Shown here in pieces: positions 3,095-12,899 of a stretch of 64,000 nucleotides of DNA. Position 1 is the stretch's first letter; each line of letters begins with the position of its first letter. The stretch is taken from positions 2,691,501-2,755,500 of the forward strand of contig NZ_CP130831.1 in NCBI RefSeq assembly GCF_030549525.1, written 5' to 3'. Source of the DNA: Stenotrophomonas sp. 704A1 (GTDB lineage Bacteria; Pseudomonadota; Gammaproteobacteria; Xanthomonadales; Xanthomonadaceae). A program made the position numbers and the translations under genes. The notes beneath the pieces were generated by a model that made no database searches, was not told where the DNA came from, and saw only the letters and a list, made by a program, of their open reading frames with translations.

Positions 3095-3143
3095 TCCCTT
3101 CGCTCCGGTGACGTGACCACAGGCACGGTCGCACCCGTTGAAT

Positions 3144-3161
3144 GTAATGTTATAACAACGC
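3144..3161. promoter_or_regulatory. Perfect 10-bp palindrome, possible Zur/Fur-superfamily site
   Basis: TGTTATAACA (3148-3157) sits in an AT-rich patch (GTAATGTTATAACAACGC) unusual for this GC-rich DNA, about 50 bp upstream of the MntR-type box of the TonB receptor. The core resembles gammaproteobacterial Zur sites, but the right arm breaks down beyond the 10-bp core. A second metal input is therefore only a suggestion. Confidence 0.3.
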
Positions 3162-3204
3162 TGTCGACTGATCTGTGCCGACGTGGCCCGGTGTGGCAGC
3201 GCCG

Positions 3205-3222
3205 ATATAGCAATTGCTATAT
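3205..3222 (+). promoter_or_regulatory. MntR-type operator upstream of the TonB receptor
   Basis: ATATAGCAATTGCTATAT is a perfect 18-bp palindrome. It matches the half-sites and spacing of the E. coli MntR box (ATAGC-N4-GCTAT core) and is almost identical to the palindrome in front of mntH in this window. Its right edge reads GCTATATT, which supplies a good -10 hexamer (TATATT), so a bound Mn-MntR would cover the promoter. It lies 72 bp before the receptor ATG. Confidence 0.75.
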
Positions 3223-3294
3223 TCATGAGCAACTGCTTTACTACGGCCCAGCCAGATCGTCCTCGCCAGCCTTCCCTCCAAGGACGCCGTTGTC

Positions 3295-5454
3295 ATGCCC
3301 GTTGCCATCCCCGTCTTCCGCCGCCTTCCCCTGGCCACCGCGTTGGCCACCCTGCTGCCGCTGCCGGCCGTGGCCGCGCCGCCCTCGCCCACCGAACTGG
3401 ACCGGGTGCAGGTCAAGGTCAGTACCGCCACCCGCAGCGAACGCCTGTTGTCCGATGTCCCGATCCGCACCGAAGTGCTGCGCAAGGAAGACATCGCGCT
3501 GCGCGCGGCCACCGACTTCTCGCGCGCAGTCGAACTGATCAACGGCCTGCGCGTGGAGAGCAACTGCCAGAACTGCAACACCAGCGAGGTACAGCTGCTG
3601 GGCCTGCCCGGTGCCTACAACCAGCTGCTGTTCGACGGCATTCCGCTGCTGTCGACGCTGGGCAGCGTCTATGGCCTGGAACAGATACCGGCCGGCTTCG
3701 TCGACCGCATCGAAGTGGTCAAGGGCGGCGGCTCGGCGCTGTACGGGCCGGGTGCGGTGGCCGGTGTGATCAACCTGATTCCGCCGCTGCCGGCGCGCAG
3801 CGGCGGGCATGTGCAGGCCGGCGTGGACGTGCTGAAGGGCACGCCGCAGAAGAATGCCGACGTGCGGCTCGACCTGGTGGCCAAGGACGCCGACGCCGGG
3901 CTGTCGGTGATCGCCCAGCGCAACTGGAACAGCGGCATCGACTACAACGGCGATGGCTACAGCGAGATCACCCGCAAGAACCTCAAGGTCGGCGGGCTGC
4001 AGGCCTGGTATGCACCCAACCCCGGCACCCGCCTCCGCCTGGACCTGCAGGTGACCGATGAAACCCGTCGCGGTGGCAACCGCCTGGACCAGCCGGAATA
4101 CCTGGCCAACATCGCCGAATCGCTGGATACCAAATACCGCCGTGGCAGCGTGTCGTGGGACCAGGAAATCAATGCCGACGTCGATTTCCGCCTGGCCTAC
4201 GCCTTCGCCGACATCGACCGCGACAGTTTCTATGGTGGCCTGGGTGACGTGGTCACCGATCCGTCCGCGCCCGGCTATGACCCGTCGCAGCTGGACCCCG
4301 ACGTGGCCGGCAGCGCGGCCTCGCGTTCGTGGCGCCAGTACGGCCGCACCCACAACCCACTGCGCTACATCGACAGCCAGTTGAACTGGCGGTTGGGTGC
4401 GCACGCGCTGGCCTTCGGCGTGCAGTACAAGCATGAGGCGCTGCGCGACGACAACCGCGCCGGGGACGGCCAGCGCCTGGCAGTGCTCGAAGACGCCACC
4501 TTCCACAACCTGGGCGCCTTCATCCAGGACGAGTGGAGCCTGCACGACAACGTCGACCTGGTGCTGGGTGCCCGCGTGGACAAGAGCTCGGAGCTGGACA
4601 ACGTGGTGTTCTCGCCGCGCGTCGCGCTGGCCTGGCAGGCGACGCCGAAGCTGAAGTGGCGGGCGGGCGTTGCCACCGGCTTCCGTGCACCGGAGATCTT
4701 CGTCGAGGACGTGCATGTCGATACGTTGGGGGCCGAACAGGTGCGCGTGCGCAATGCCGACGGCCTGAAGGAAGAGCGCGCGTTGACCACCCTGTTCGGC
4801 TTCGACTGGCGCTCGGACCCGGCCAATCCGGTGTGGAGCTGGGATGCCACGGCCTCCTACGCCCGCATCCGCGATACCTTCGCGCTGGGCGAGATCCAGC
4901 GCGGCGACGACGGCCGGCTCAGCCAGCTGCGCTACAACGCCTCGGGCTCGAACGTGCTGGGCATGGAAACCAACCTCGGCTGGCAGCCATCGCCGCAATG
5001 GCGCCTGAGCGCCGGCGCCTCGTGGTACCGCTCGCGTTTCCGCGAACCGCAGCGCATCTTCGACGACACCGGCGATGGCGGTGACACCGTCATCGAGAGC
5101 CGCGACTACCTGAAGACGCCACGCTGGACCGGCGTGGCCCAGCTCAGCTGGATGCCGACCGAGCCATGGGAAACCTTCGTCGCGCTGCGCCACACCGGCC
5201 CGATGCCGGTGCTGAACAACCGGCTGGGCGAACTGCGCCGTACCCGTGCCTTCCTGGTCACCGACCTGGGCGCGCGCTGGCACCGCCACCTGGGCGCGCA
5301 GGCGCAGCAGGAAGTGTCGGTGGCCGCAGGGGTCAAGAACGTGTTCGACCAGCGCCAGAAAGACCTGGAAGTGGGCGCGCTGCGTGACAGCGACTACGTC
5401 TACGGGCCGCGTTTCGCGCGCTCGTGGTACGTCAACCTGCGCTATGCGTTCTGA
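3295..5454 (+). CDS. TonB-dependent outer-membrane receptor, candidate manganese importer
   Basis: A 719-residue TonB-dependent receptor. It has a signal peptide (about residues 1-28), a plug domain and a 22-strand barrel ending in the typical aromatic C-terminus (NLRYAF). In the plug, EVQLLGLPGAYNQLLFDG and VDRIEVVKGGGSALYGPGA match the family; the residues NCQNCN (near 87-92) place a Cys-x2-Cys pair in it. The substrate cannot be read from the protein. The perfect MntR-type palindrome upstream, shared with mntH, argues for manganese, by analogy with the Mn-repressed outer-membrane channel MnoT of Bradyrhizobium. It overlaps the next gene by 11 bp. Cobalamin-, iron- or zinc-type substrates remain possible. 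Confidence 0.85.
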   Translation: MPVAIPVFRRLPLATALATLLPLPAVAAPPSPTELDRVQVKVSTATRSERLLSDVPIRTEVLRKEDIALRAATDFSRAVELINGLRVESNCQNCNTSEVQLLGLPGAYNQLLFDGIPLLSTLGSVYGLEQIPAGFVDRIEVVKGGGSALYGPGAVAGVINLIPPLPARSGGHVQAGVDVLKGTPQKNADVRLDLVAKDADAGLSVIAQRNWNSGIDYNGDGYSEITRKNLKVGGLQAWYAPNPGTRLRLDLQVTDETRRGGNRLDQPEYLANIAESLDTKYRRGSVSWDQEINADVDFRLAYAFADIDRDSFYGGLGDVVTDPSAPGYDPSQLDPDVAGSAASRSWRQYGRTHNPLRYIDSQLNWRLGAHALAFGVQYKHEALRDDNRAGDGQRLAVLEDATFHNLGAFIQDEWSLHDNVDLVLGARVDKSSELDNVVFSPRVALAWQATPKLKWRAGVATGFRAPEIFVEDVHVDTLGAEQVRVRNADGLKEERALTTLFGFDWRSDPANPVWSWDATASYARIRDTFALGEIQRGDDGRLSQLRYNASGSNVLGMETNLGWQPSPQWRLSAGASWYRSRFREPQRIFDDTGDGGDTVIESRDYLKTPRWTGVAQLSWMPTEPWETFVALRHTGPMPVLNNRLGELRRTRAFLVTDLGARWHRHLGAQAQQEVSVAAGVKNVFDQRQKDLEVGALRDSDYVYGPRFARSWYVNLRYAF

Positions 5455-6004
5455 GCCACTACGCGCGTTGCTGCTGGCCTGTGCCGTGCTGCTGGCCGCA
5501 CCGGCAATGGCGACAGACCTGCACACGCAAGTCTCCGCCTCGCTGATGCGGCCCGAGCAGCGCTCGCTGCGGCCGGTGCAGTGGTCGCCGCCACCCAGGC
5601 TGGTGGCGCTGTACTTCGGCGCCGACTGGTGCGGGCCGTGCCATGCCTTCGTGCCGACCCTGCGCAGCGTGCGTGACGCCCTGCGCCAGGCCGGTGCCGA
5701 TACCGAGGTGGTGTACGTCAGCCTGGATGAGAGCGAGGCCGCTCTGCGGCGCTACATGCAGCTGCAGGACATGCCGTGGCCGGTGCTGGACCCACGCCGG
5801 GCGCAGCGCATGCCGGCACTGCAGGCGCTGGCCGGGCCGGCGCCGCCGAACCTGGTGCTGATCGATGCCGATGGCAGGGTACTGGCCAATGGCTGGCAGG
5901 GTCACCGCTACGAAGGCCTGCAACCGGTGCTGAAGGCATGGACGGAACGGGCATGCGCGCAGCAACAGGCGCGATGCGCCGACGGCGACATCCCTTCACG
6001 GTAG
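5444..6004 (+). CDS. Exported thioredoxin-fold protein coupled to the TonB receptor
   Basis: A 186-residue protein with a signal peptide (hydrophobic residues 7-22, AMA-T-like cleavage site). The thioredoxin/tryparedoxin-like domain carries WCGPC (Cys63, Cys66) and a later cis-Pro region (APPNLVLIDADG). It is probably periplasmic and would reduce or shuffle disulfides. Its ATG lies inside the receptor's last codons (11-bp overlap), so the two genes are translationally coupled and presumably share the Mn-responsive promoter. The receptor plug has a Cys-x2-Cys pair, so the receptor is a conceivable client; that is inference. Confidence 0.75.
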   Translation: MRSEPLRALLLACAVLLAAPAMATDLHTQVSASLMRPEQRSLRPVQWSPPPRLVALYFGADWCGPCHAFVPTLRSVRDALRQAGADTEVVYVSLDESEAALRRYMQLQDMPWPVLDPRRAQRMPALQALAGPAPPNLVLIDADGRVLANGWQGHRYEGLQPVLKAWTERACAQQQARCADGDIPSR

Positions 6005-6070
6005 CGTCGGGCCATGCCCGGCGAAATGCGTGACGCAACATTACGCCCGCCGGGCATGGCCCGGCGCTAC
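6001..6070. repeat. Pair of inverted SMAG/REP palindromes
   Basis: Two copies of the repeat face each other: GTAGCGTCGGGCCATGCCCGGCG (6001-6023) and its inverted copy (6048-6070), with 24 bp between. Each copy is itself a GGGCATGGCCC-type hairpin. They lie between convergent genes and may act as a bidirectional terminator or mRNA stabiliser. Confidence 0.8.
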
Positions 6071-6072
6071 CG

Positions 6073-6543
6073 CTACGGCGCCCCGCCCTCGGCCCTGCGC
6101 ACGAACGCCTCGAACAGCGCCAGCGTCTGTTCGCTCACATGGTGCTCGATGCCTTCCGCGTCGCGCCGTGCCGTATCCGGGTCCACGCCCAACGCCAGCA
6201 GGAACCGCTCCACGGTCTGGTGGCGCTGGCGGCTGGCATGCGCCAGCGCTTCGCCTTCCGGGGTCAGGAACACGCCGCGGTACGGGCGCTGCACCACCCA
6301 GCCGTCGCGGGCCAGCCGGCGCAGCATCTTCGCCACCGTAGGCTGGGCCACGCCCAGGCGGGTGGCGATGTCGACCTGGCGGGCCTCGCCGCCGTCGGCC
6401 AGCAGGTCGGAGATCAGCTCGACATAGTCCTCCACCAGCTCCATCCGATGCGCTTCACGCACCTGGCGGAAACTCTCGACCTGGCGCTCGGCCTCGATCA
6501 GGGGGGTGCCTTTTGGCGATGTCGGATCGTCCGTACTGCCCAC
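6073..6543 (-). CDS. mntR: Manganese-responsive transcriptional regulator MntR (DtxR family)
   Basis: A 156-residue DtxR/MntR repressor, close to the length of E. coli MntR and with the same kind of N-terminal extension. The winged helix spans about residues 52-98 ([20 protein letters not shown], then RPYRGVFLT). By alignment with Bacillus MntR the Mn ligands are all kept: Asp39, Glu42, His108, Glu130, Glu133 and His134 (motifs VEDYVE, RHQTVE, AEGIEHH). No SH3-like domain follows, as expected for MntR rather than IdeR/DtxR. The start is GTG 6543. It is divergent from mntH with the operator between them, so autoregulation and mntH repression are likely. Confidence 0.93.
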
Positions 6544-6633
6544 GCGGGTGTCTGTCCTGCAGCTGATTCGGGGGGTGAACCTGAATTCTGGACCAGTGAC
6601 GCGATAAAGACGATTGTTTCACATTGCTATCGG

Positions 6634-6651
6634 ATATAGCAGTGGCTATAT
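6634..6651 (+). promoter_or_regulatory. MntR operator in the mntR-mntH intergenic region
   Basis: ATATAGCAGTGGCTATAT has the same arms as the receptor box at 3205-3222 (ATATAGC-N4-GCTATAT; the flanking G and T are also shared) and fits the known MntR box. Its right edge forms TATATT (6647-6652), a -10 hexamer 16 bp downstream of TTGCTA. Transcription would start near the mntH ATG at 6659, implying an almost leaderless mRNA. Confidence 0.85.
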
Positions 6652-6658
6652 TGAATCC

Positions 6659-7990
6659 ATGAACACCGTCGCATCGACCGACTCCACGGCCTCCACTGCG
6701 GCCAGCCTGGGTGCGCTCAACGCCTCGGTCGCCGTGCCCGACAAGGGCCACTGGGGGTTCCGCCTGCTCGCCTTCCTCGGCCCGGGCTACATGGTCTCGG
6801 TGGGCTACATGGATCCGGGCAACTGGGCCACCGATCTTGCCGGCGGCTCCCGCTTCGGCTACCTGCTGCTGTCGGTCATCCTCATTTCCAACCTGATGGC
6901 GGTGATCCTGCAGGCGCTGTCGGCACGGCTGGGCATCGCCACCGGCATGGACCTGGCCCAGGCCTGCCGCGCGCGCTACCCGAAGCCGGTCAATCTGGCG
7001 CTGTGGGCACTGTGCGAGGCGGCGATCATCGCCTGCGATCTTGCCGAGGTGATCGGTACCGCCATCGCCCTGAAACTGCTGTTCGACCTGCCGCTGCTGT
7101 GGGGCGCGGTGATCACCGCACTGGACACCCTGCTGGTGCTGCTGCTGATGAACCGCGGTTTCCGCGCCCTGGAAGCGTTCGTGATTGCACTGCTGGTGGT
7201 GATCTTCGGCTGCTTCCTGGTGCAGATCGCGCTCGCCGCGCCGCCGGTGATGGCGGTGCTCGGCGGTTTCATTCCGCGCGCGCAGGTGGTCACCGACCCG
7301 CATGCGCTGTACATCGCCATCGGTATCATCGGCGCCACGGTGATGCCCCACAACCTGTACCTGCACTCCTCCATCGTGCAGACCCGCGCCTACCCGCGTA
7401 CCGAGCAGGGGCGCCGCAGCGCGCTGCGCTGGGCGGTGACCGACAGCACCATCGCCCTGACCCTGGCGCTGTTCATCAACGCCAGCATCCTGATCCTGGC
7501 CGCGGCGGTGTTCCATGCCAACGGCCGCTTCGATGTGGAAGACATCGAGCAGGCGCACCAGCTGCTGGCGCCGATGCTCGGCGTAGGCCTGGCCTCCACG
7601 CTGTTCGCGGTCGCGCTGCTGGCCTCCGGGCTGAATTCCACGGTGACCGCCACGCTGGCCGGGCAGATCGTGATGGAAGGCTTCCTGCGCCTGCGCCTGC
7701 CGCCCTGGCTGCGGCGGCTGATCACCCGCGCACTGGCGATCATTCCGGTGGTGGTGGTGATCATGCTGTTCGGCGACCAGGGCGCGGTGAAGCTGCTGGT
7801 CCTGAGCCAGGTGGTGCTGTCGATGCAGCTGCCGTTCGCGATCATCCCGCTGGTGCGGATCGTGACCGACAAGGTGACGATGGGCGCGCTGGTGGCACCG
7901 CGCTGGCTGGGCGCGATCGCCTGGGTGATCGCGCTGGTGATCGTGGTGTTGAACGTGAAGCTGCTGGTGGATACCTTCAGCGGCGCATAG
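6659..7990 (+). CDS. mntH: Nramp-family proton-coupled manganese transporter MntH
   Basis: A 443-residue inner-membrane Nramp transporter importing Mn2+ (also Fe2+) with protons. The metal-site motifs are present: DPGN in TM1 (Asp52-Asn55, in [10 protein letters not shown]) and MPH in TM6 ([10 protein letters not shown]). Eleven hydrophobic segments can be followed. The ATG at 6659 gives MNTVASTD; an in-frame start 45 bp upstream lies in or before the operator and is rejected. An MntR box overlaps the promoter, and mntR is adjacent and divergent. Confidence 0.95.
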
Positions 7991-8063
7991 CGCGACATGC
8001 CAGGGACGCCGTTGTGGAGTCGAGCCCTGCTCGATTCATCGCGCATCGCGCATCGCGCGAAAG

Positions 8064-8136
8064 GCCGCCGGGCATGGCCCGGCGCTACGGAAATGAAAGG
8101 CGGCGCGAAAGGCCGCCGGGCATGGCCCGGCGCTAC
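8064..8136. repeat. Tandem direct copies of the SMAG/REP palindrome
   Basis: Two identical copies of GCCGCCGGGCATGGCCC-GGCGCTAC (8064-8088 and 8112-8136) stand in the same orientation, each preceded by GCGCGAAAG or CGCGCGAAAG, so about 34 bp is duplicated. They fill the gap between convergent mntH and the thioredoxin gene. Confidence 0.8.
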
Positions 8137-8161
8137 CAATGCGACCCTGGTTATCCCAACC

Positions 8162-8488
8162 TTACAGATGCAACGCGATCGCGGCCTCGATCTGTTGCGG
8201 CGACTGGAACCCGGCCAGGCGCGTACGTTCGTCGCCGTCACGGAACAAGGACAGCGTCGGCGTCTGCCGCAACCCCAGCTCCCTGAAGAACGCCTCGCCC
8301 ACCACTTCCAGCTGTACGCGCAGCAGCGTGGTGCCCTGCCCCGCCAGGCTGTTGGCCACGCGATGCAGCGACATCTCCAGCATGCGGCAGCCGGGGCACT
8401 GGTCCTTGTGGAAGTCCACCAGCACCCGTGGGTGTTCGGCCAGCAGCTGCTGGAACTGTTCAGGCGTGGTGGCGTCGATGATCTGCAT
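8162..8488 (-). CDS. Thioredoxin-family protein in the nrd operon
   Basis: A 108-residue cytoplasmic thioredoxin-fold protein with a non-standard active site CPGC (Cys31-Cys34) instead of WCGPC, and a cis-Pro motif (RQTPTLSLF). As the last gene of the nrdA-nrdB-flavodoxin operon it probably re-reduces the active-site or C-terminal disulfide of the NrdA subunit, a role filled by NrdH, thioredoxin or glutaredoxin elsewhere. The ATG 8488 (MQIIDATTP) is preferred over an in-frame ATG 45 bp upstream. It overlaps the flavodoxin gene by 29 bp, which suggests coupled translation. Confidence 0.8.
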   Translation of the reverse strand: MQIIDATTPEQFQQLLAEHPRVLVDFHKDQCPGCRMLEMSLHRVANSLAGQGTTLLRVQLEVVGEAFFRELGLRQTPTLSLFRDGDERTRLAGFQSPQQIEAAIALHL

Positions 8489-9002
8489 CGTGCGTGCTCC
8501 GGTAATGGGCCAGGACCGCGTCGGTCCAGGCATCGATGGCAGCGGCGTGGCGTTCGCCGTGCGGCATCTGTTCGATTTCCAGTGGCGGGTAGTCGCTGCG
8601 GAAATAGCGCCGCAGCCGATGCACGGCGCCGCAGTAGTATTCCTGCCCCCACTGCGTCTCGCCGGTACCGAACACCGCCAGCTGCCGCGGCCGCTCGCCG
8701 CGTTCGGCGATGCCGGCCACCCACGCCTTCATTTCCGCCGGGGTGCGGCCGGCGTTGTCGGTCCAGCAGCCCAGCAGCACCAGGTCGGCCTCATCGGCCG
8801 CCAGCGGCGGCGCCTGGCGCAGGTCGTCGGCCTCCTGCCAGTGCACCGCATGGCCGGCGCCGCGGCAGCGCGCGGCGATGTGCCGCGCCAGCTCGCGGGT
8901 ATTGCCGCTCAGCGAGGCGACCACGATCAGGATGCTGAGCGCGGGGCCGTGCTCAGAGGTCGTCGAAGCCGTTGTCGACGTTGGTCTTCTTGTAACTTGC
9001 AT
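8460..9002 (-). CDS. Flavodoxin-like protein in the nrd operon
   Basis: A flavodoxin-fold protein of up to 180 residues. The phosphate-binding loop for FMN is ASLSGNTRELA, following a hydrophobic first strand (SILIVV); later motifs are LGCWTDNAGRTP and VFGTGETQWG. It is larger than NrdI (about 130 residues), and I do not identify it as NrdI. Its place after nrdB suggests that it delivers electrons for assembly or repair of the NrdB metal-radical cofactor, where E. coli uses the ferredoxin YfaE. The only ATG in frame before the conserved part is 9002, overlapping nrdB by 50 bp. A CTG start nearer to SILIVV cannot be excluded. Confidence 0.75.
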   Translation of the reverse strand: MQVTRRPTSTTASTTSEHGPALSILIVVASLSGNTRELARHIAARCRGAGHAVHWQEADDLRQAPPLAADEADLVLLGCWTDNAGRTPAEMKAWVAGIAERGERPRQLAVFGTGETQWGQEYYCGAVHRLRRYFRSDYPPLEIEQMPHGERHAAAIDAWTDAVLAHYRSTHDADHRRHHA

Positions 9003-9993
9003 TGCGCATCTCGAAGAAGTCGGTCTTGGTTTCGGTGAAGTTGTCGGCGTAGGCCTTGATCCACGGCATCACGTTGTCAGTGGTATCGCTGTACAGGCGC
9101 TCGATGCCGAGCATGCCGGCCATCTTGTTGGCGCGGTACTTCACGTAACGCACCATCTCGTCCACGTCGATGCCATCGATGCCGTCCAGCACCTCCGCCG
9201 ACCACTGCGTCTCCAGCTCGATGGCGTGCTCGAAGGCACCGTGCACATAGGCAGTGAGTTCGTTGGTCTGCAGTTCCGGGTTCTCGCCGACGATGGCGCG
9301 GATCACCTCGCTGATGAACTTGGTGTGGGCCAGCTCGTCGCGGTTGATGAAGCTGATGATCTTGCCGGTGCCGGTCATGCGGTTCTGCCGCACCAGGTTG
9401 TAGAAGTAGGCGAAGCCGGAATAGAAGTTGATGCCTTCCAGGGTCGAGGACTGGATCAGCGACCTGAGCAGGGTTTCGGCAGTCTTCTCGCGCATGAAGT
9501 CGTCATACGCTCCCATGATCGGTGCGTTGCGCTTGATGATGGTCGGATGGGTGCGGGCCAGCTCGAATACCCGGTTCTGGTTGGGCAGGTCGGTGATCGA
9601 GGCCAGCACGTAGCTGTAGCTTTCGTTGTGGATCACTTCCTGCTGGCCGATGATCGCCGCATTGGCATGCGCGGCCGGGTCGGTGATGTACTCGGCGACG
9701 TTGTAGATGAAGCGGGTCTGCGGCGAATCCAGCGTCGCCAGCAGCCCGATGATCGAGTCATAGGCGTTCTTCTCGCGCCCGGACAGCTCGCCGTACTGGC
9801 GGGCGTCCAGCTTCATGTCGACCTCGTCGGGAATCCAGAAGTTGGTCGACAGTTCCTTGTAGGCCCGATAGAACGACGGGTACGGAATGTCGTTCCAGTT
9901 CAGGATGCCGCTGGTGCGGCCGTTGATGATGCCGGTGCTGCGGTTGGGGTGGCGCGGTTCGAGGATCTTGATGCGGTCGAGGGGGGTTGCCAT
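8953..9993 (-). CDS. nrdB: Class I ribonucleoside-diphosphate reductase, beta (radical) subunit NrdB
   Basis: A 346-residue ferritin-like R2 subunit that generates the radical needed by NrdA to make deoxyribonucleotides. Metal ligands by family alignment are Asp89, Glu119, His122 (QQEVIHNESY), Glu186, Glu220 and His223 (NRDELAH). The radical tyrosine is Tyr126. The NrdA-docking tail is acidic (NVDNGFDDL). The ATG at 9993 (MATPLDRIKI) follows a SMAG-containing spacer of 95 bp after nrdA. Whether the cofactor is Fe2, Mn2 or mixed cannot be read from the ligands. Confidence 0.94.
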   Translation of the reverse strand: MATPLDRIKILEPRHPNRSTGIINGRTSGILNWNDIPYPSFYRAYKELSTNFWIPDEVDMKLDARQYGELSGREKNAYDSIIGLLATLDSPQTRFIYNVAEYITDPAAHANAAIIGQQEVIHNESYSYVLASITDLPNQNRVFELARTHPTIIKRNAPIMGAYDDFMREKTAETLLRSLIQSSTLEGINFYSGFAYFYNLVRQNRMTGTGKIISFINRDELAHTKFISEVIRAIVGENPELQTNELTAYVHGAFEHAIELETQWSAEVLDGIDGIDVDEMVRYVKYRANKMAGMLGIERLYSDTTDNVMPWIKAYADNFTETKTDFFEMRNASYKKTNVDNGFDDL

Positions 9994-10008
9994 GGTCCTG
10001 CCTGCAGG

Positions 10009-10083
10009 GGTAGCGCCGGGCCGTGCCCGGCGGAAGGTGCGTATGCCGCGCGGTGCGCTCGCCGGGCCCGGCCCGGCGCTGCC
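10009..10083. repeat. Inverted SMAG/REP pair inside the nrd operon
   Basis: A degenerate pair of facing palindromes, TAGCGCCGGGCCGTGCCCGG (from 10011) and CGCCGGGCCCGGCCCGGCGC (from 10060), fills the nrdA-nrdB spacer. Inside an operon such hairpins could set the ratio of the two subunits by protecting nrdA mRNA or attenuating nrdB; this is inference. Confidence 0.7.
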
Positions 10084-10088
10084 GGTGG

Positions 10089-12467
10089 TCAGCTCGAACA
10101 CCACTCGCATTCGCTGATGTCGATGTCGTTGGAGCGCACGTAGTAGGTGGTCTTCAGGCCTTCGCGCCAGGCGCTCAGGTGCAGCTCCAGCAGAGTGCTG
10201 GCGCGGATGGTGCTGGGCACGTACAGGTTGAAGCTGATCGACTGGTCCACGTGGCGCTGGCGACGCGCGTTCTGGCGCACGCTGGCGAACTGGTCCACCT
10301 TGTAGGCGCCCTTCTCGTAGTACGGCCAGGTCTCCAGCGACAGGCCCGGCGCCGCCACCGGCCGGCGGAAGTCCTTCTTTTCCTCGTAGTAGAACGCGCT
10401 GTAGATCGGGTCGATGGAGGCGGTGGAACCGGCGATCTGCGCGGTGCTCATGTTCGGCGCGACGGCCAGCAGCCAGCCATTGCGCAGGCCGTGCGTGGCG
10501 ACCTCGCGGGCCAGGCTGTCCCACGCGGCGCCGCGGTAGTCGCGGTCACGGAAGTAGCGCCCGTTGTGCCAGTCGCTGCCAACGAACATCGGGTAGCTGC
10601 CCTTCTCCTTGGCCAGCTGCGCGCTGGCCTGGATGGTCAGGAAGTTGATGCGTTCGAACAGGCGGTCGGAGAGCGCTTCGGCTTCGGGTGACTCCCACTG
10701 GATGGCCTGCTGCGCCAGCAGGTGGTGCCAACCGAACGTGCCCAGGCCGATCGCGCGGTACTTGCGGTTGGTGATGGTGGCCTGCGGTACCGGCAATGCG
10801 TTGAGGTCGATGACGTTGTCGAGCATCCGCACCTGGATCGGGATCAGGCGCTCCAGCACGTCGGTGGCCAGCAGGTCGTCCGGCGCGCTGATCGCACGGC
10901 CGAGGTTGATCGAGGACAGGTTGCAGACCACGAAGTCGCCGGCGCGCCGCGTGGTGACGATCTGGTCGCCACTGACGATCTCCTGGATCATCCGTGTCGG
11001 GCTCATGTTCTGCAGGATCTCGGTGCACAGGTTGCTGGAATAGACCATCCCCGCGTGCTTGTTCGGGTTCTTCCGGTTGACTTCGTCACGGTAGAACAGG
11101 AACGGGTTGCCGGTTTCCAGCTGGCTGAGCATGATCCGCTTGAACAGGTCGATCGCCTTCACCGTACGGCGGCTGATGCGCTCGTCGGCCACCAGTTCGG
11201 CATAGCGGTCGCGGAAGCTGCCCGCACCGCGGGACTCGTCGTAGAAGTCCTGCAGGTACCAGCCCTTGGCCTGCTTCACTTCGTGCGGATCGAACAGGTA
11301 CCAGTCGGCGCGCCGCTCCACGGCTTCCATGAACAGGTCCGGCACGCAGATGGCGGTGAACACATCGTGCGCGCGCAGGCGCTGATCACCGTTGTTCAGG
11401 CGCAGGTCCATGAACGCTTCGATGTCGCGGTGCCAGACGTCCAGGTACACCGCCACCGCGCCCTTGCGCTGGCCCAGCTGATCGACCGACACGGCCGTGT
11501 TGTTAAGCTGCTTGATCCACGGCACCACGCCGCCGGAGGAATTGGGTACGCCGCGGATCGGCGCACCGCTGCTGCGCACATAGCCCAGGTAGGCGCCGAC
11601 ACCGCCACCGTGCTTGGACACGCGCGCGATATCGGTATTGGAGTCGTAGATCCCCTGCAGGCTGTCGTCCACCGTGTCGATGAAGCAGCTGGACAGCTGG
11701 CCACCGACCTTGCCGGCGTTGGCCAGGGTCGGTGTGGCCACCGTCATGTACAGGTTGGACAGCGCCCAGTACGCCTCGCCGACAAGCTGCATGCGCCGCT
11801 CGCGCCCGCTTTCACCAGGTCCGCCCTCGTCCTGCATCAGGTACAGCGCGATGGTCAGCCAGCGCTCCTGCGGCAGTTCATAGACGTCACGGCTGCGGTC
11901 GCTGGCCAGGTAACGGGTGGCCAGCAGGTACAGGCCGTTGTAGGCGAACAGGCGGTCACGATCGGGGTCGATCATGTCACCGGCCCGCTGCAGCTCTTCC
12001 TTCGAATAGCAGCGCAGGATGTCGTTGCTGTAGATGCCGCGGTCGGCCAGGCTTTCCTGCAGGCCTACGTAGGAGCCGTACTTCAGGCTGACATCGTAGA
12101 AGCGGTTGCGGCTGGCGCGCTTGTACAGCCGTCGCAGGTACAGGCGTGCGGCGAACTGTTCCCAGTCGGGTGCGACCAGGTCCACGCGCGATTCCGCTTC
12201 GCGGATCAGCAGGTCGACCAGATCGTCGGCACTGATGCTCGGTTTGCGTTCGACCATCGCCTGCACCACGCGGCGGTAGTCGGCCACATCCAGCTGCGGC
12301 AGTTCGGCATGGATGGCATCGATGCTGCGCTGCAGGCGCTGCGCGTCGAATGGCAGGCGGCGGTTGCCCGCCTCCTTGGTGATCCAGGTGGGCACCTGCT
12401 CGCCGCCCACGCGCAGGGCGTCGCCGGCGCCGGCCAGATCGGCCACGCGGAAGGTACTGTCGGTCAT
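10089..12467 (-). CDS. nrdA: Class I ribonucleoside-diphosphate reductase, alpha (catalytic) subunit NrdA
   Basis: A 792-residue catalytic subunit. An N-terminal ATP-cone (about residues 25-115, from VPTWITKEAGNRRLPFDAQR) would give allosteric activity control. The catalytic site shows SSCFIDTVDDS (first redox Cys), SNLCTEI (thiyl Cys and Glu) and VVCNLSS (second redox Cys). The radical-transfer tyrosines are in KTTYYVRS, and the C-terminal cysteine pair is CEWC. The ATG 12467 begins MTDSTFRVAD; the open frame continues upstream with no family similarity. The ATP-cone and length fit class Ia rather than Ib. Confidence 0.95.
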   Translation of the reverse strand: MTDSTFRVADLAGAGDALRVGGEQVPTWITKEAGNRRLPFDAQRLQRSIDAIHAELPQLDVADYRRVVQAMVERKPSISADDLVDLLIREAESRVDLVAPDWEQFAARLYLRRLYKRASRNRFYDVSLKYGSYVGLQESLADRGIYSNDILRCYSKEELQRAGDMIDPDRDRLFAYNGLYLLATRYLASDRSRDVYELPQERWLTIALYLMQDEGGPGESGRERRMQLVGEAYWALSNLYMTVATPTLANAGKVGGQLSSCFIDTVDDSLQGIYDSNTDIARVSKHGGGVGAYLGYVRSSGAPIRGVPNSSGGVVPWIKQLNNTAVSVDQLGQRKGAVAVYLDVWHRDIEAFMDLRLNNGDQRLRAHDVFTAICVPDLFMEAVERRADWYLFDPHEVKQAKGWYLQDFYDESRGAGSFRDRYAELVADERISRRTVKAIDLFKRIMLSQLETGNPFLFYRDEVNRKNPNKHAGMVYSSNLCTEILQNMSPTRMIQEIVSGDQIVTTRRAGDFVVCNLSSINLGRAISAPDDLLATDVLERLIPIQVRMLDNVIDLNALPVPQATITNRKYRAIGLGTFGWHHLLAQQAIQWESPEAEALSDRLFERINFLTIQASAQLAKEKGSYPMFVGSDWHNGRYFRDRDYRGAAWDSLAREVATHGLRNGWLLAVAPNMSTAQIAGSTASIDPIYSAFYYEEKKDFRRPVAAPGLSLETWPYYEKGAYKVDQFASVRQNARRQRHVDQSISFNLYVPSTIRASTLLELHLSAWREGLKTTYYVRSNDIDISECEWCSS

Positions 12468-12899
12468 TGTCGTGCTGCTCCAGGCTCGCGCGCGGGGTGG
12501 CGTTCGATGCCATGGCGGCCCAGCACGCGATACCGGCGCACGGGGCGAACGGGTGGATGTGCCAGCGCACGGGAACGGAGGTCGTCGGCATCTGCCTGCG
12601 CCTGCGGCCGGTATCCGGGCCGTGGGGGCGACCTGCGTCCGCACGATGGCGGCCGCGTCGACACGGCAAGCCTTCAGGGGCGGGCCGCGGGACGTTTGCT
12701 GCATGTCCGGCGGCGGCGGCTGACCGGGAGTGACGGCCACAACATAGTGGGGATATCCGGACTCGTCAACACAAGATGCGGTAATCAGCACAGGTCGCGA
12801 CCATCGGTCGCAGGATGCCGTGTTGCACCTGCGCCGCCTTGTCGACAACGCCTGCGTCCCCAGTTCGGTACAACATCAACTTTCCCCGGAACACCGCCC
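12468..12899. other. 432-bp divergent intergenic region: nrdA promoter and long leader
   Basis: No convincing gene was seen. On the minus strand a good promoter (TTGACG, 17 bp, TATGTT) lies at 12741-12769, which gives nrdA a leader of about 265 nt. The rest of the leader is very GC-rich, with several potential stems. The right-hand part carries the promoter and ribosome site for the divergent oxidoreductase at 12900. No known riboswitch was recognised. Confidence 0.5.
12741..12769 (-). promoter_or_regulatory. Predicted nrdA promoter
   Basis: TTGACG (12769-12764) and TATGTT (12746-12741) are separated by 17 bp, close to the sigma-70 consensus. The -10 lies within CCAC-TATGTT-GTGG, an inverted repeat that may be an operator. 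It is 2 bp too short to fit the NrdR box. Confidence 0.55.

Follow-up and report, generated by a model that had tools for sequence, protein, structure and literature searches.

A TonB-dependent receptor operon of Stenotrophomonas sp. 704A1 with an MntR box and a conserved Zur-type element in its promoter, and its candidate manganese and zinc cargo

The window, a stretch of 64,000 nucleotides from Stenotrophomonas sp. 704A1, contains a gene for a TonB-dependent receptor of 719 aa (3295..5454, + strand), in which the plug and beta-barrel domains (Pfam Plug and TonB_dep_Rec_b-barrel) both exceed their cut-offs. Its end is overlapped by 11 bases by the start of a + strand gene (5444..6004) encoding a thioredoxin-fold protein with a CGPC motif (Thioredoxin_8, 50 bits against 27). 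Beyond these lie mntR on the − strand (6073..6543) and, on the + strand, mntH (6659..7990), encoding an Nramp-type manganese importer (NF001923, 643.2 bits against a cut-off of 430). MntR exceeds the equivalog cut-off of the Gram-negative type (NF008273, 248.7 against 153 bits). In an alignment to the structure of Bacillus subtilis MntR, it keeps all six metal ligands (D39, E42, H108, E130, E133, and H134), supporting the original prediction of an adjacent mntR with its ligands retained.

Pattern scans identified two MntR boxes, neither assigned to a strand: ATATAGCAATTGCTATAT (3205..3222) before the receptor gene, which is also conserved in relatives, and ATATAGCAGTGGCTATAT (6634..6651) before mntH. 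Both are flanked by G on the left and T on the right. With up to three mismatches to ATATAGC-N4-GCTATAT, these are the only matches in the window; 100 dinucleotide shuffles of the window gave a mean of 0.18 matches, and two matches were reached in 2 of the 100. The genome, a single contig of 4,686,432 bases, contains two perfect sites, one site with a single mismatch, and 12 with three mismatches; no site has exactly two. Sites with three mismatches are considered to be noise, since the reversed control pattern gives more matches at up to three mismatches (23 against 15). The window boxes are two of the three genome sites at up to two mismatches; the third, with one mismatch, precedes mntP, upstream of a manganese riboswitch (RF00080) and an MntP-like gene that scores 207.2 bits, below the cut-off of 214. 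Based on these scans and shuffles, the near-identical pair of boxes with the same flanks is real. The further claim, that both are placed alike relative to a TATATT −10, holds for the equal spacing (TATATT at 3218-3223 on the receptor side and 6647-6652 on the mntH side); however, the −10 is assigned by eye, because a sigma-70 consensus and terminator scan of 3095-3300 found no promoter and no terminator, and the distances from box to start codon differ (72 bp for the receptor, 7 bp for mntH).

Relatives were compared in 77 loci, from the best 80 of 107 relatives, and 120 of 2111 proteins were listed; gene calls in these neighbourhoods are a rough heuristic, with several ORFs in the wrong frame. 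The 420 bp ahead of the conserved receptor start contain the exact core TAGC-N4-GCTA in all 16 Stenotrophomonas loci and in 13 of the 61 non-Stenotrophomonas loci; in the remaining 48 it is missing from the stretch searched (this stretch was shortened for L040 and L076, and L047 and L048 carry the core further up). Elsewhere in the same loci there are 21 exact cores in 1,362,860 bases: 16 mntH boxes, two beside mntR (L047 and L048), and three that are unexplained. All 16 Stenotrophomonas receptor loci contain mntH, each with the box core ahead of it; none of the 61 loci outside the genus yielded an mntH. A broader scan at two mismatches was used just for boxes near mntR or the receptor, because for most of its matches the control gave as many or more (for example, 18 against 9). 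In Xanthomonas, Luteimonas, Sphingomonas, a Caulobacteraceae MAG, and Opitutaceae, too, MntR-type boxes lie ahead of the receptor or of the operon containing it; a search of other genomes, a check suggested with the original prediction, finds the box in all 16 Stenotrophomonas loci compared and also in Xanthomonas. Outside Stenotrophomonas, the association of box, mntR, and receptor spans two phyla. An mntR-like gene (>100 bits) is within 3 kb of the receptor in 15 of the 61 loci, and the three that were scanned against NCBIfam (L037, L045, and L051) are all over the MntR cut-off.

Control of this receptor module by MntR is already known, having been shown for the orthologue in S. maltophilia Sm18 (PMC13217887, May 2026). 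The module reported there, orf2357-orf2358 (TBDR-pTFP), has MntR boxes and a CQNC plug motif; its receptor promoter fusion is silenced by 80 nM manganese and raised in an mntR deletion. The prediction that the receptor and thioredoxin-fold genes belong to the manganese regulon is borne out. As described, the Sm18 module resembles the one in the window in having a receptor and thioredoxin-fold gene by mntR and mntH, a box before the receptor, CQNC, and a third box at mntP, but differs in its thioredoxin motif, CAPC rather than the CGPC of 704A1. CAPC is also found in 15 of the 16 other Stenotrophomonas loci, and CGPC, CVPC, CLPC, and CPPC occur among relatives' thioredoxins. The Sm18 authors suggest a role for the thioredoxin on the CQNC pair, and report that deleting either gene left growth unaffected under their test conditions (PMC13217887). 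They also report that manganese still partly lowers expression in the mntR deletion and that low iron is needed too (PMC13217887); these two effects fit neither MntR nor Zur, which counts against a manganese and zinc reading. The main text of that paper never mentions Zur, Luteimonas, Sphingomonas, or Xanthomonas, and names zinc only in passing.

Fur control of the receptor was considered and rejected: the best matches to three consensus forms in its promoter have 5 to 9 mismatches, equalled by 151 to 860 of 1000 shuffles. With no Fur-like site there, the published iron dependence is left unexplained by Fur. In the gap between mntR and mntH, the Fur form AATGAGAATNATTCTCATT matches at 6607 with 6 mismatches, equalled in 18 of 1000 shuffles.

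The receptor promoter contains a second conserved sequence, a putative Zur-binding element (TGTAATGTTATAACA, 3143..3157, no strand assigned) with two mismatches to TGTTATANTATAACA; an equal match was found in 0 of 1000 shuffles. The element reads GTAA-N5-TAAC, one base away from the Zur regulon operator GTTA-N5-TAAC (PMC4176598), is exact in 15 of 17 Stenotrophomonas receptor promoters, and is similar to sites preceding zigA-like and ZnuD-like genes. It begins 62 bp ahead of the MntR box, at a position above the promoter where repressors do not usually bind. With up to three mismatches allowed, the Zur-type pattern matches the genome 10 times and its reversed control 8 times, and therefore only sites with up to two mismatches were weighed; there are five of these, one of which (L096) has no recognised metal gene alongside. 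Neither mntH nor mntP has a Zur-type site (6 and 7 mismatches). The 704A1 genome has no ZnuA-family gene at E up to 0.001 and has a separate ZnuD-like receptor (452.6 bits, cut-off 950). Ownership of the element by fabR was ruled out, as the element is exact in L017, L020, L028, and L043, in which the fabR ORF is about 2.9 kb off.

A further 395 genomes were taken from a larger group; these overlap with the 77 loci, so the counts are kept apart. For the Lysobacteraceae promoter comparison 24 of 25 genomes were entered, the 704A1 genome being read separately. The Zur-type element follows the receptor, being present in 8 of 9 genomes with it and 0 of 15 without it. Of the two signs, the MntR box is found more often in the Lysobacteraceae (20 of 24 genomes), and five other receptors of this family have a Zur-type site, weak in two cases, and no MntR box. 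Two of these five are in genomes with mntR elsewhere (G144 and G343); one, G395, lacks mntR and is a 2.8 Mb MAG that may be incomplete. The receptor match in G331 covers residues 28-450 alone. On the receptor tree there are three state changes between MntR and Zur labels, which were assigned by hand, with three-mismatch sites behind two "zur" rows (L035 and G065) and imperfect cores behind three "mnt" rows (L041, L045, and L079). No report of the Zur-type element or of an MntR/Zur regulator shift was found in the open-access literature searched.

The receptor structure model has a mean pLDDT of 86.9, and its fold is closest to siderophore, catecholate, and cobalamin receptors; fold rank is no guide to cargo. 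A plug motif, Cys91-Gln-Asn-Cys94 (codons 3565..3576, + strand), and a barrel motif, Glu471-Asp-x-His474 (codons 4705..4716, + strand), stand out in the alignment of relatives, where all 77 sequences keep Cys91, Cys94, Glu471, and His474, a candidate metal site (L055, with its receptor split over two ORFs, is excluded from this alignment). In another set, C94 is kept in 41 of 42 relatives, with His in the remaining one. A loop, D216-x-N-x-D-G-x-x-E224 (codons 3940..3966, + strand), is EF-hand-like by eye; D216 and D220 are present in all 77 aligned relatives, of which 63 have E at position 224 and 14 have D. A CxxC motif together with a His resembles the ligand set of a zinc site, and Mn(II) is not usually bound by two cysteines. 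In OprC of Pseudomonas aeruginosa, ionic copper is reported to lie between plug Cys143/Met147 and barrel His323/Met325 (PMC8610252). The window receptor likewise has a plug cysteine motif and a barrel histidine motif, but these are CxxC and EDxH rather than the CxxxM and HxM of the copper receptor; OprC is among the Foldseek matches of the model from rank 18 on. ZnuD and other Zur-controlled TonB receptors are similar in being outer-membrane metal receptors tied to Zur-type sites; however, the window receptor's 24 NCBIfam matches at E up to 0.001 do not include the curated ZnuD model (NF038289), and its gene is preceded by an MntR box.

The metal genes near the receptor differ by locus, with mntH, a manganese/iron-type ABC system, or a ZIP-like gene. 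In L042, the receptor is followed by a ZnuA-family binding protein, an ATPase that passes the cut-off for manganese/iron ABC systems (394.8 against 393), an ABC-3 permease, and a second permease-like ORF (rough call). A secreted Fe/Mn superoxide dismutase is near the receptor in L035. Zinc-chaperone-type zigA-like genes are within 3 kb of the receptor in L033, L035, L037, L038, L053, and L056, that of L056 having no Zur-type site (7 mismatches) and that of L035 just a three-mismatch site.

Passage of manganese through the outer membrane has been described for few bacteria, and the cases that a literature search turned up are MnoT and the Sm18 module. The statement in the original prediction that such uptake is rarely described stands as to the small number of cases, but it missed both the Sm18 paper (PMC13217887) and MnoT of Burkholderia thailandensis, a TonB-dependent manganese transporter (PMC8602904). 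The Zur-type element of the receptor promoter likewise went unnoticed there. MnoT is similarly a TonB-dependent receptor, and is induced by low manganese; its reported partner is instead the secreted manganese-binding protein TseM (PMC8602904).

On balance we lean towards an MntR-held receptor and thioredoxin operon whose most likely cargo is Mn(II), ionic or in a loose chelate, along with Zn(II). When manganese is sufficient, MntR would hold the operon down; when it is short, the receptor would be made and may bring a metal cargo through the outer membrane, driven by TonB. The periplasmic thioredoxin may keep Cys91 and Cys94 of the plug reduced, so that cargo is held and released, and MntH would then move manganese into the cytoplasm. 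Zur binding, metal transport, the nature of the cargo, and the job of the thioredoxin are what we infer here. Zn(II) is a likely cargo besides Mn(II) because the Zur-type element is conserved in the same Stenotrophomonas promoter and because several relatives lack the MntR box but carry a Zur-type site. Of the proposed outer-membrane manganese import, MntR regulation is upheld, but manganese as the sole cargo is weakened by this element and is not established; manganese plus zinc, or a shared ligand, fits best. Some observations count against manganese plus zinc: the one-base departure of the element from the consensus and its position upstream of the promoter, the lack of a growth phenotype in the Sm18 deletions, the two-cysteine site, odd for Mn(II), and the 61 other loci, with no mntH and 48 lacking the exact core.

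That the receptor imports manganese only, as suggested by the Sm18 authors and the original prediction, is unlikely. The Zur-type element would then be a relic or not a Zur site, and the thioredoxin would serve the CQNC pair alone. Manganese and MntR control in Sm18 (PMC13217887), the linkage of mntR, the manganese/iron-type ABC genes of L042, and the lack of a Zur-type site at mntH and mntP all agree with this, but it leaves unaccounted for an element that is conserved, follows the receptor, and resembles zigA- and ZnuD-like sites, and the five Lysobacteraceae receptors with that site alone. It is rather improbable that a metallophore or metal-binding protein is imported, its ligand carrying manganese or zinc so that the operon answers both shortages. 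Metal-responsive TonB receptors are reported often to import metallophore complexes (PMC6103462), the nearest folds include siderophore receptors, and two metal regulators on one promoter suit a shared ligand; against this, no synthesis genes were noticed in the part of the neighbourhoods inspected by eye (rough gene calls), and the invariant Cys/Glu/His set suits bare metal. Zinc as sole cargo, with the receptor having joined the manganese regulon as low manganese and low zinc coincide (for example, in oxidative stress or host metal withholding), is very improbable: the zinc-like ligand set, the zigA neighbours, and the box-less relatives with Zur-type sites are outweighed by the commoner MntR box in Lysobacteraceae, the response to 80 nM manganese in Sm18 (PMC13217887), and the ABC partner in L042. 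Chance origin of both palindromes, for which no supporting point was found, is already refuted by the window and genome scans, conservation in relatives' loci, and the published Sm18 reporter results.

For the family as a whole, it is tentatively suggested that these receptors may serve a joint manganese and zinc supply, their control having shifted between MntR and Zur, with both acting at once in Stenotrophomonas, and that manganese, zinc, or a common ligand may be imported. If one receptor does serve both metals, shortage of one would affect the supply of the other.

The host genome is a single contig of 4,686,432 bases; named Stenotrophomonas strains have receptors with up to 95% identity to the one in the window, which points to this genus. 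In the window, an MntR box (3205-3222) precedes the TonB-dependent receptor gene (3295-5454), which is overlapped by a thioredoxin-fold gene (5444-6004); mntR (6073-6543) lies on the opposite strand to the receptor gene, and a second MntR box (6634-6651) stands before mntH (6659-7990). The predicted pairing of near-identical boxes at the receptor and mntH is borne out, these being the only matches in the window at up to three mismatches. The adjacent mntR is likewise as described: its product scores over the curated MntR cut-off in a profile search and keeps the six residues that we take to be the metal ligands. Next to mntH, on the minus strand (8162-12848), are genes for thioredoxin, flavodoxin and the beta and alpha subunits of ribonucleotide reductase; the flavodoxin falls just below the ribonucleotide reductase-associated threshold (TIGR01754, 161.9 bits against 163.8). 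A tie between manganese import and this possibly manganese-using reductase is worth a look.

At up to two mismatches the genome contains three MntR boxes, two of which are those in the window. The third, in the locus L003 (1501-1518), is upstream of a manganese riboswitch (1587-1676; RF00080, 46.8 bits against a gathering score of 45) and an MntP-like gene (1766-2341). In Stenotrophomonas maltophilia Sm18, an mntP fusion is reported to have no expression when MntR is missing (PMC13217887), as if MntR activated mntP.

MntR control of the receptor module is correct and is already in print. Argueta-Zepeda et al. (May 2026; PMC13217887) report the same locus in Sm18 as an MntR-regulated TonB-dependent receptor and periplasmic thioredoxin-fold protein (TBDR-pTFP) module. 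Their receptor promoter fusion was on only when manganese and iron were both limiting, 80 nM manganese abolished its activity, and deletion of mntR raised it, with manganese still repressive there, less strongly; these published data support the original prediction that receptor and partner belong to the manganese regulon. Deletion of receptor or partner left growth unchanged under the conditions tested. The authors also describe the CQNC motif, model manganese coordination at it, and propose that the partner acts as a disulfide reductase (PMC13217887); the main text makes no mention of Zur, Luteimonas, Sphingomonas, or Xanthomonas. An earlier TonB-dependent manganese transporter is MnoT of Burkholderia thailandensis (PMC8602904). 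To the published finding the present analysis adds a Zur-type element and the reach of the system outside Stenotrophomonas.

The MntR link extends past the genus. Contigs were scanned with an alignment of 42 relatives; the best 80 of 107 gave 77 loci, 16 from Stenotrophomonas and 61 from elsewhere, and the exact core TAGC-N4-GCTA was sought in the 420 bp upstream of the conserved receptor start. Among these best 80 of 107, the core is present in 16/16 Stenotrophomonas and 13 of the 61 other loci (3 Xanthomonas, 5 Luteimonas, 3 Sphingomonas, 1 Opitutaceae, and 1 other Verrucomicrobia). The remaining 1,362,860 bases of the 77 loci hold it 21 times: 16 mntH boxes, two that adjoin mntR in L047 and L048, both alphaproteobacterial, and three unexplained. 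In the same best 80 of 107, mntH is found in 16/16 Stenotrophomonas loci and was detected in 0/61 others; 15 of these 61 have an mntR-like gene (>100 bits) within 3 kb, three more have weak matches (25 to 41 bits), and 34 have the thioredoxin partner, upstream of the receptor in one (L054). The mntR-like genes of L037, L045, and L051 are over the MntR cut-off.

Several of these neighbourhoods have features of their own. In L047 and L048, TTGTAGC-N4-GCTACAT adjoins mntR. L048, from a Caulobacteraceae MAG, carries mntR, a multicopper oxidase, a ZIP-like protein (under the Pfam cut-off, 25.8 against 35.1), the receptor, and thioredoxin in this order (6936-12560). Downstream of the receptor in Cephaloticoccus (L042) come genes for a ZnuA-family binding protein, an ATPase (394.8 against the manganese/iron ABC cut-off of 393), and an ABC-3 permease, with a second permease-like ORF. 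The distant receptors of L056-L092 (Acidobacteria, Verrucomicrobia, and other groups) are mostly without an mntR neighbour, some having a thioredoxin partner; their plug CxxC is nearly always CQNC, with some CQSC, CQTC, and CMNC.

The putative Zur-type element (3143-3157), identified by sequence comparison, has two mismatches to TGTTATANTATAACA, equalled by 0/1000 shuffles, and differs at one base from GTTA-N5-TAAC, reported as a conserved feature of Zur sites in many proteobacteria (PMC4176598). In the receptor promoter alignment, TGTAATGTTATAACA is exact in 15/17 Stenotrophomonas, L019 and L029 deviating. At up to two mismatches the pattern has five genome sites: one stands ahead of a TonB receptor, one ahead of a ZigA-like GTPase that scores 574.7 bits (cut-off 600), one ahead of a ZnuD-like receptor that scores 452.6 bits (cut-off 950), one ahead of the window receptor, and the fifth at a position where no metal gene was recognised; at up to three it is no commoner than the control (10 against 8 genome matches). 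The exact Zur-type and MntR composite occurs in 19/61 Stenotrophomonas genomes (reversed control 0/61). Among the genomes shared with the 395-genome survey, it is present in 8/9 with the receptor and 0/15 listed without it. The genome has a Zur-like gene (126.2 bits, cut-off 167). A search of it for ZnuA-family binding proteins found none at E up to 0.001, so inner-membrane zinc uptake may take another route.

The receptor is present in 25 of 395 family genomes, and the sites were surveyed in 24, leaving out the host genome. MntR boxes at up to two mismatches occur in 20/24: 12/12 Stenotrophomonas, 4/4 in g18 and g53 (assigned to Xanthomonas from their matching contigs), 4/6 in g29 (Luteimonas), and none in the receptor genomes of genera g19 and g20. 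Zur-type sites at this threshold occur in 14/24 (12/12 Stenotrophomonas, G331, and G343), with three-mismatch sites in G159, G018, and G065. In the Luteimonas loci L033, L034, and L036, a Zur-type site is present and the MntR core absent. In L033 (genome G144; 9420-9849), the Zur-type box, with one mismatch, stands farther upstream, and a MerC-family gene follows it in operon order, ahead of the receptor. Among 19 receptor-bearing genomes, mntR was found in 16; G018, G065, and G395 (the genome of L036), where it was not found, belong to the five without an MntR box, and the other two, G144 and G343, have mntR elsewhere.

L033, L035, L037, L038, L053, and L056 each carry a zigA-like gene no more than 3 kb from the receptor, and L034 a weak one. 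Zur-type sites at up to two mismatches precede zigA in L033, L037, L038, and L053 (0/300 shuffles each); L035 has a three-mismatch site only, and none was found before zigA of L056. In L037, L038, and L053, the Zur-type site is at zigA and the MntR box at the receptor. On a 29-receptor tree labelled 'mnt', 'zur', or 'both', some labels being based on weak sites, the labels require 3 changes (shuffled mean 10.2, 0/200 as low), and 'both' forms one supported clade.

Cys91, Cys94, Glu471, His474, Asp216, and Asp220 do not vary among the 77 receptors aligned (that of the window and those of 76 loci, from the best 80 of 107). Of the 42 rows in the scanning alignment, 41 retain Cys94; the exception, P0110, has CQNH for CQNC, and a histidine there fits metal binding better than disulfide formation. 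In OprC, ionic copper is reported to sit between Cys143/Met147 of the plug and His323/Met325 of the barrel (PMC8610252), a precedent for a candidate site built from a plug Cys and a barrel His. The barrel also contains an invariant D-x-[ND]-x-D loop (window 3940-3966, same best 80 of 107), EF-hand-like by eye, which is possibly a calcium or manganese site. By Foldseek, the structural model (mean pLDDT 86.9) most resembles PirA, Cir, and PfeA, and by VIA-align BtuB and Cir; these likenesses do not settle the cargo. The exchange of MntR-type and Zur-type sites among the relatives is best fitted, with moderate confidence, by a receptor that would serve both manganese and zinc.
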